In this document: positions 49,769 to 51,016 of the stretch, piece after piece
Numbering within the stretch: position 1 is the stretch's first letter
How the letters are laid out: each line of letters starts with the position of its first letter
NCBI RefSeq assembly: GCF_016735495.2
Contig: NZ_JAERQY020000004.1
Coordinates: forward strand, 124,001-188,000
Source of the DNA: Lysobacter sp. MMG2
GTDB taxonomy: Bacteria > Pseudomonadota > Gammaproteobacteria > Xanthomonadales > Xanthomonadaceae
Reading direction: 5' to 3'
Length of the DNA stretch: 64,000 bases
Program-made: the position numbers and the translations under genes
Notes under the pieces: model-generated
Database searches by the model: none
The model's input: the letters and a program-made list of their open reading frames with translations, nothing else
What the model was told of the DNA's origin: nothing

Positions 49769-50299
49769 CTACAACGCACCCGTCCGAACGTGGAACCCCA
49801 GTGCCCCAGCCACCATGCGCAGCGCCTCGTCGTCGCGCTGGCGGGTGATGAAGCCGGCCTGTGCACTTTCGCCGGTCTCGTAGGTCCACAGCGTGTAGTG
49901 GTGCTCGCGCAGGCGGTCGAAGGCGACGTTCACCAGCGCCGGCACTTCGGCATGAGCGAGGAATTCATCCTCGTCGGTGTCCTCGCCCCAGTCGATGCGC
50001 AGTCCCAGGCGCGAGGCGAGCTCGTCGAGCACATCGACCAGGCCCGCCGGATCGGTGTCGTCGATGTAGAAACCCGAGCGCCAGTCGATCACGTCGCGCA
50101 GCACGGCGACCGGGTCGGCGCCGTCGGCCAGGGCTTCCCGGCAGGCGTTGAACTGCTCCATCGCGGCCTCGTCGTCGCCGGGGTTGATGAGCAGCAGGAA
50201 CTGCCAGGCGACCGCTTCCATCGCGGCCTCGTCGTCGATGTCGGCTTCGTTGTGGAAGGCGCGGGCGAAGTTGTCGTCGGGGTCGTATTCGGAATGCAT
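49769..50299 (-). CDS. DUF6630-like acidic protein
   Basis: 176 residues, strongly acidic, soluble. MHSEYDPDDNFARAFHNEADIDDEAAMEAVAWQFLLLINPGDDEAAMEQF, then a middle with VIDWRSGFYIDDTDPAGLVDVLDELASRLGLRIDW and a C-terminal VNVAFDRLREHHYTLWTYETG. I recall this as the DUF6630 family, with unknown function. ATG at 50297-50299. A terminator hairpin stands upstream of it on the same strand (50378-50412), so transcription from further upstream is likely limited. Confidence 0.7.
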   Translation of the reverse strand: MHSEYDPDDNFARAFHNEADIDDEAAMEAVAWQFLLLINPGDDEAAMEQFNACREALADGADPVAVLRDVIDWRSGFYIDDTDPAGLVDVLDELASRLGLRIDWGEDTDEDEFLAHAEVPALVNVAFDRLREHHYTLWTYETGESAQAGFITRQRDDEALRMVAGALGFHVRTGAL

Positions 50300-50377: not shown

Positions 50378-50412
50378 AAAAAAGAAGGGCTGCGGCAAAC
50401 GCCGGCAGCCCT
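50378..50412 (-). terminator. Strong intrinsic terminator on the minus strand
   Basis: Read leftward: AGGGCTGC - 11-base loop - GCAGCCCT followed by TCTTTTTT (plus strand A-run at 50378-50383). No gene upstream on this strand accounts for it; it would end a leftward transcript arising between 50413 and the SRPBCC gene. Confidence 0.8.
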
Positions 50413-50536
50413 GAAAGGAGTGGACGCCTGGGGGAAGGGGAGGCGTCCGGCCGACTCGCACGGCCGCGGCCAGAGTCGCCGCGGGCGCACATCGGAACCA
50501 TCGGACGATTCCGAAACCGACGCGGCCTTTCGTCGG
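50378..50536 (-). ncRNA. Candidate structured small RNA: tandem hairpins ending in a terminator
   Basis: Reading leftward from about 50536 there are several hairpins: CCGACG/CGTCGG (50517-50536), an imperfect GGAATCG...GGTTCC stem (around 50493-50511), CCGCGG/CCGCGG (50464-50484), GGACGCCT/AGGCGTCC with a C-rich loop CCCCTTCCCCC (50422-50448), and the terminator (50386-50412). A C-rich loop is the seed type of known Xanthomonad and alphaproteobacterial sRNAs that bind ribosome binding sites. No promoter is evident; high GC makes some stems likely by chance, but two 8-bp perfect stems plus a U-run are less so. Confidence 0.4.
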
Positions 50537-50614: not shown

Positions 50615-51016
50615 ATGGCCTCGATTCAACGCGACATCGACGTGGAAGTCCCGCTGCCCACTGCGTGGGATGCGCTGCGCGACGTCGGCCGTATTCACGA
50701 ACGGCTGGTGCCCGGCTTCGTCGCCGATTGCCGAATGGAAGGCCGCGTGCGCGTGGTGACCTTCGGCGACGGCACGGTGGTGCGCGAGCCGATCCTCGAC
50801 ATCGACGAAGCGCGACACCGCGTCGCCTGGGCGGCGGTCGGTTCGTTCGAGCACTACAACGCGTCGGTGCAGGCGTTCGAACGCGACGGCGGCGGGACGC
50901 GCCTGCGCTGGATCGCCGACCTGCTGCCTGACGAAGCCGCGCCGAAGGTGGCCGGCATGATCGAAGAGGGGCTGCGCACGATGAAGCGAACGCTGGAGGC
51001 GGCGACGCGCGCTTGA
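50615..51016 (+). CDS. SRPBCC family protein (START-like fold)
   Basis: 133 residues. ASIQRDIDVEVPLPTAWDALRDVGRIHERLVPGFVADCRMEG is the opening beta-strand plus helices of polyketide-cyclase/START-like SRPBCC proteins. The rest follows the strands (RVVTFGDGTVVREPILDID, HRVAWAAVGSFEHYNAS, TRLRWIADLLPDE) and a long final helix (MIEEGLRTMKRTLEAA). The fold binds hydrophobic ligands; the ligand is unknown. ATG at 50615. Confidence 0.85.
   Translation: MASIQRDIDVEVPLPTAWDALRDVGRIHERLVPGFVADCRMEGRVRVVTFGDGTVVREPILDIDEARHRVAWAAVGSFEHYNASVQAFERDGGGTRLRWIADLLPDEAAPKVAGMIEEGLRTMKRTLEAATRA

Follow-up and report, generated by a model that had tools for sequence, protein, structure and literature searches.

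A small RNA (sRNA) predicted on the minus strand between genes for a DUF6630 protein and an SRPBCC protein in Lysobacter sp. MMG2 represents, as far as sequence comparison can tell, a new sRNA family of known type, whose members are conserved in one group of Lysobacter. The hairpins first noted at this place are very probably the 3' part of a stand-alone sRNA gene with its own promoter. Taken as a whole, the reading that we moderately favour is that of a trans-acting, C-rich anti-Shine-Dalgarno sRNA activated by a response regulator, here named P0001, that resembles RcsB, a regulator of envelope stress. In a literature search, judged by titles and abstract openings with partial coverage of the results, no description of this sRNA was found. 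Here we present the anatomy and conservation of the locus, the promoter box and its candidate regulator, and a comparison with known sRNAs.

Anatomy, fold and conservation of the sRNA locus

The window, i.e. the whole stretch of 64,000 nucleotides that was analysed, contains the following features of the locus; all positions are those of the window.

50615-51016, plus strand: divergent SRPBCC gene (open reading frame and Pfam match to Polyketide_cyc2, 51 bits)
50515-50498, minus strand: box TTCGGAATCGTCCGATGG with palindromic core TCGGANNCGTCCGA, a proposed RcsB-type response-regulator site overlapping the -35 region, found at 8/8 distinct sRNA loci and again at other places of these genomes
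50477-50472, minus strand: -10-like hexamer GACTCT, exactly 20 nt past the box
50465-50378, minus strand: predicted sRNA of about 88 nt, its start placed 7 nt past the -10 hexamer and its end at the T-run
50465-50449, minus strand: hairpin 1, GGCCG-UGCGAGU-CGGCC, with UGCGAGUC identical in 8/8 distinct loci
50448-50422, minus strand: hairpin 2, an 8-bp stem with the C-rich loop CCCCUUCCCCC (from the minus-strand sequence, single folds and paired changes)
50421-50413, minus strand: unpaired linker ACUCCUUUC, with CTCCTTTC identical in 6/6 core sequences and diverged in genomes G006 and G011
50412-50378, minus strand: hairpin 3 and T-run, a predicted intrinsic terminator (from inspection and conservation)
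50332-50327, minus strand: TATCCT within the block CGCCGTATCCTGTGCGCCCC, a candidate promoter of the DUF6630 gene's own
49769-50299, minus strand: DUF6630 gene, downstream of and outside the RNA (open reading frame and domain match)

On the minus strand, the stem of hairpin 2 is formed by GGACGCCU and AGGCGUCC (50448-50441 with 50429-50422), which enclose the C-rich loop at 50440-50430. The linker includes CUCCUUUC, which resembles the anti-Shine-Dalgarno tail of 16S rRNA. Hairpin 3 has the stem AGGGCUGC/GCAGCCCU, starting at 50412, and after it comes UCUUUUUU, which ends at 50378. The built-in terminator scan called no terminator at the 3' end of the sRNA, probably because a bulge makes the loop longer than the 8 nt allowed.

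The run of hairpins that the first-pass annotation had described between the DUF6630 and SRPBCC genes (a stem, a C-rich loop and a second stem with a T-run on the minus strand) is real: the fold of 50540-50372 has z = -3.69, that of the predicted sRNA alone (taken as 89 nt) z = -4.87, and in either case 0/200 shuffles were as stable. The observation that no coding gene upstream explains the terminator was likewise correct, the next gene in that direction being the divergent SRPBCC gene. Hairpin 1 and the promoter were absent from that description, and the interval it gave, 50378-50536, holds only in part: the sRNA occupies about 50465-50378, whereas 50515-50498 is the promoter box and 50536-50516 lies outside.

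All eight distinct sRNAs, folded singly, adopt the same three-hairpin shape, in which hairpin 2 has 7-9 bp and a linker leads to the terminator hairpin and its T-run. The number of shuffles as stable (200 each) was 0 in six sRNAs, 1 in G006 and 4 in G011. The C-rich segment is located in the loop in six sRNAs and in the linker in G006 (CUCUUUCCCCCA); it is absent in G011.

Two further explanations of the conserved block were ruled out by eye. A small coding frame across it would be thrown out of phase, since relatives carry 0-2 additional nt in the loop of hairpin 1; a sigma-54 promoter (CTGGC...TTGCGA) does not agree with a GG-to-GC distance that differs by 0-2 nt.

A DNA search detected the sRNA region in 8 of the 12 genus genomes, and a covariance model of the full element matched in 9 of the 12 with 105.6-146.6 bits; the eight sequences from which the model was built account for eight of the nine matches, and the remaining match, in G009, is identical to the window. 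Under the more stringent filters meant for large sets, the model gave no match elsewhere in the family (383 genomes). Named genomes scanned with an exact pattern yielded four loci, in Lysobacter soli KCTC 22011, L. changpingensis CM-3-T8, L. arvi UC and 'Lysobacteraceae bacterium P', which are not to be added to the count of nine. Alignment of the loci revealed conserved blocks also upstream of the hairpins noted first.

In the covariation analysis that the first-pass annotation had proposed, two pairs of the C-loop stem showed compensatory C-G/U-A changes: five core sequences have C-G at pair 4 of hairpin 2, where G002 has U-A, and five have C-G at pair 8, where U-A is found in G000, the genome of the window. 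This hand count covers the six core sequences, with a shifted stem for G008 and with G006 and G011 left out. A MAFFT alignment of the six core sequences also has two pairs changed on both sides, a result reached by 13/500 shuffles and 0/6 slid controls, in a count in which G008 is off by two columns and its unpaired cells are included. The terminator stem is nearly invariant among the loci and says little on covariation. With all eight sequences, RNAalifold gave a poor consensus (covariation term +2.23), and in G006 and G011 hairpin 2 was badly aligned. An independent sRNA with a C-rich loop and its own terminator, one of the two possibilities raised at first, is supported by its presence in 9/12 genomes of the genus, by the two compensatory pairs and by the conserved promoter described below.

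Promoter box and candidate regulator

The 18-bp box follows the pattern TTCGGANNCGTCCNATGG and lies 20 nt upstream of the -10-like element. Among the sRNA sites, NANNNT is found at this offset in 7/8 and at 21 in G004, and the gap between the hexamer and the GGCCG of hairpin 1 is exactly 6 nt in 8/8 loci, which fits a transcription start at GGCCG. The conserved box, the fixed -10 spacing and the constant gap together indicate that the sRNA has a promoter of its own.

A search with TTCGGANNCGTCCNATGG, allowing two mismatches at most, in the 12 genomes of the genus, with the reversed pattern as control, gave 124 matches vs 32 reversed in the nine RNA-bearing genomes (the sRNA sites and the G009 copy counted) and 22 vs 17 in the three RNA-less ones; G001, which has neither the sRNA nor a P0001 orthologue, accounts for 13 box matches vs 6 in the control. 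Apart from the sRNA places and G009 (a copy of G000), the RNA-bearing genomes hold 101 distinct sites, from 102 places, of which 41 carry NANNNT exactly 20 nt past the box, while the other 49 offsets have a mean of 2.2 and the next-highest counts are 11 at offset 45 and 9 at offset 21. The stricter TANNNT has 8 occurrences at offset 20, against 4 at the remaining offsets taken together. The peak is clear, yet its formal probability of 5e-41 is overstated because many box sites are orthologues of each other. In the RNA-less genomes, where 20 of the 22 box places were covered, NANNNT stands at offset 20 in 2/20 sites. The remaining 60/101 sites lack a -10 at 20 nt; many of these lie inside reading frames and are perhaps due to chance.

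The promoter recurs before envelope and adhesion genes, among others. Box sites are located 55-111 nt ahead of frames for a fimbrial protein (PF00419, L105), an adhesin with a TPS domain (PF05860, L162) and a receiver-only protein (PF00072, L070). At the same range of distances, a box precedes a frame with a weak outer-membrane barrel match (PF13505, below cut-off, L115), where the -10-like sequence TTTACT falls outside the NANNNT rule. Lipoprotein-like frames were recognized by eye among the box contexts.

Some individual sites are listed here in their own right. In the genome of the window, the fimbrial gene (PF00419) at L105:1501-2190 (C5:70215) has the box TTAGGAACTGTCCGATGG with CAACAT 20 nt on and is a candidate co-regulated gene. 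At L070 and L235 (region of G002:C11:478294) and at L135 and L232 (G004), a box and then a receiver-only response regulator come after a second RcsB-like gene; on the other side, G002 and G003 have a long frame that by eye resembles a hybrid kinase with solute-binding sensor domains. At L062 (G003, C1:2891153) a perfect box just past a gene end is followed by a hairpin and a T-run, with no -10 at 20 nt, and is perhaps only the terminator region of that gene.

The candidate regulator P0001 (G000:C1:79433-80089) is one of 18 proteins with a GerE (LuxR-type HTH) match in its genome. Among the matches listed, the NCBIfam RcsB model is its best with 165.8 bits, followed by one with 100.4, and this score lies under the cut-off of 235 of the RcsB equivalog NF008098; identity to E. 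coli RcsB is 40% over 204 positions. Orthologues at 74-100% identity are present in exactly the nine RNA-bearing genomes of the 12, and the best relatives in the RNA-less G001, G010 and G005 reach 57, 55 and 33%. This co-occurrence may reflect ancestry alone, because presence and absence follow one clade. In G009, two further RcsB-like genes (41%) were observed which, at the cut-off of this comparison, are absent from G000, a genome of the same species.

Sites of NarL/FixJ-type regulators usually have twofold symmetry, and so has the core TCGGANNCGTCCGA. E. coli RcsB binds the half-site TTAGGAA, whose bases are read by K180 and S184 (PMC5829831). Both residues are kept in 8/8 distinct P0001 orthologues, and position 184 is R or N in all 15 RcsB-like paralogues read (41-57% identity; one G001 paralogue with 48% was left out).

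A weight matrix was derived from the 41 Lysobacter box sites in a sharp and a softened version and applied to E. coli, where osmB and bdm as well as rprA served for comparison, the first two being RcsB targets in this organism. Of 29,968 positions, the site in the rprA promoter took rank 5 with the sharp matrix and rank 6 with the softened one; as judged by eye, it lies on the other strand at a distance of 22 nt from the -10. When orientation and the 20-nt register are kept as in Lysobacter, rprA scores poorly, its value of -10.0 being reached by 107 of 13,968 background positions. The regions upstream of osmB and bdm were not in the top 6 of their 15-kb stretches. The best match in one such 15-kb stretch, L247:77-94 of E. 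coli K-12 upstream of ymiA, reads TTAGGATTTGTCTCATCG.

Judged by its symmetry, the recognition helix and the mixed outcome in E. coli, the box is a candidate RcsB site, and control of the RcsB type seems somewhat more probable than not. That P0001 is the activator of the sRNA is moderately probable.

Relation to known sRNAs and alternative readings

At gathering scores, no Rfam family matched in the 64-kb window, so that the Rfam search proposed in the first-pass annotation, with sX13 included, returned nothing at that level. The closest model is RF00519, mmgR/suhB (alpha-r8, clan CL00108), with 25.7 bits against a cut-off of 41. It is also the best Rfam match in 6/8 homologues, over the whole 77-position model, with up to 31.9 bits and always below 41. 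The aligned model positions 1-77 place a hairpin, a C/U-rich segment and a terminator hairpin in the same order as in the Lysobacter sRNA, which differs from MmgR by an extra 5' hairpin and by the RcsB-type box. MmgR is known from rhizobia and is induced by NtrC, and both MmgR and the AbcR RNAs carry predicted anti-Shine-Dalgarno motifs (PMC7143759).

Transcription of RprA is activated by the RcsB homodimer and is considered strictly RcsB-dependent (PMC6298664). The Lysobacter sRNA would resemble RprA in its control, given the candidate RcsB-type operator in its promoter, but orientation and spacing of the operator differ, and the Rfam search of this stretch, carried to E = 10, did not list RprA. 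sX9 and sX12, searched by accession in the genome of the window, gave no match; for sX9 this negative is weak because none of the control genomes has an sX9 match either. The RcsB-like regulator of L. enzymogenes is 39.52% identical to E. coli RcsB (PMC13101495) and can be likened to P0001 (40%) by identity to the E. coli protein alone; it did not bind the HSAF promoter. No RcsB DNA site was noticed in that paper, and the terms 'sRNA' and 'consensus' occur 0 times in its main text (PMC13101495).

Two readings would attach the RNA to something already known. In its own genome the sRNA is on the DUF6630 strand, 78 nt upstream of the start codon of that gene, so that the first-pass annotation had considered a leader attenuator, i.e. 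a 5' UTR element that terminates transcription conditionally. This reading is very unlikely; it fails because more than 1 kb separates the sRNA from the DUF6630 gene in G006 and G011 and because G001 has the SRPBCC and DUF6630 genes as an adjacent pair without the sRNA. In G011, a response-regulator-like frame stands between the two. The block GTATCCTGT before the DUF6630 gene is retained in the RNA-free G001, and the block CGCCGTATCCTGTGCGCCCC is kept in 6/6 comparable aligned rows (the G006 row left out). The likeness to sX13 (RF02232), also raised at the outset, is sound as an analogy: sX13 has C-rich loops and three hairpins, too, and represses mRNAs with G-rich motifs near their translation starts via these loops (PMC3771888). 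As an identity it is virtually excluded, since sX13 gave no match in the window at its gathering score (50 bits), nor on this stretch up to E = 10, and the only sX13 match in the genome, with 78.7 bits (cut-off 50), is at G000:C4:123476-123584 beside polA (copy at L048:1501-1609; polA recognized by eye from the translation). The Lysobacter sRNA, in contrast, has SRPBCC and DUF6630 genes as neighbours.

The other two readings accept the sRNA and differ in how it is controlled or how it acts. With 18 GerE matches in the genome, the same promoter could be served by a NarL/FixJ-type regulator other than P0001, and a second RcsB-like gene (49-50%) does adjoin the receiver-protein gene in G002, G003, G004 and G007, with a box there in G002 and G004. 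This second gene, however, was not found in the genome of the window and encodes R at position 184 in all four genomes, whereas P0001 is the RcsB-like protein that every RNA-bearing genome shares; we regard a different regulator as rather unlikely. A similarly low probability is given to a function as a sponge or as a protein-binding RNA, in which the loop of hairpin 1 would be the active part. The invariant UGCGAGUC, kept in 8/8, could indeed be the functional core instead, the C-rich loop being lost in G011 and shifted to the linker in G006. Against this, a C-rich loop or C-run is present in 7/8 sRNAs, the linker CUCCUUUC is identical in 6/8, and the best Rfam similarity spans C-loop, linker and terminator.

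Proposed mode of action and significance

The favoured reading, a P0001-activated anti-Shine-Dalgarno sRNA, comprises the following steps. P0001 most likely binds the box at 50515-50498 and, when bound, would activate the promoter with the -10 at 50477-50472. The resulting transcript, predicted to be about 88 nt long with three hairpins, would be closed by the intrinsic terminator. Its C-rich loop in hairpin 2 and the CUCCUUUC linker most likely pair with, and thereby mask, purine-rich ribosome-binding sites of target mRNAs, by analogy with MmgR/AbcR and sX13, and this pairing would lower the translation of these mRNAs. Such an anti-Shine-Dalgarno action is considered reasonably likely.

The genes behind the box include those for fimbriae, for lipoprotein-like and receiver proteins and for a two-partner-secretion adhesin. 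The Lysobacter group may possess an RcsB-like cell-surface regulon that has the previously undescribed sRNA as its post-transcriptional arm, and this sRNA would then be an equivalent of E. coli RprA with an origin outside the enteric bacteria; for this wider proposal we see the chances as evenly balanced. The finding adds to Lysobacter a new sRNA family with predicted start and end, tied to a candidate operator and a candidate regulator, and from the operator one obtains a set of promoters that are candidate RcsB-type targets in a biocontrol genus, for which a link between an RcsB/C system and antifungal activity was recently reported (PMC13101495). If the proposal is true, sRNA output from an RcsB-type regulator exists outside the enteric bacteria.
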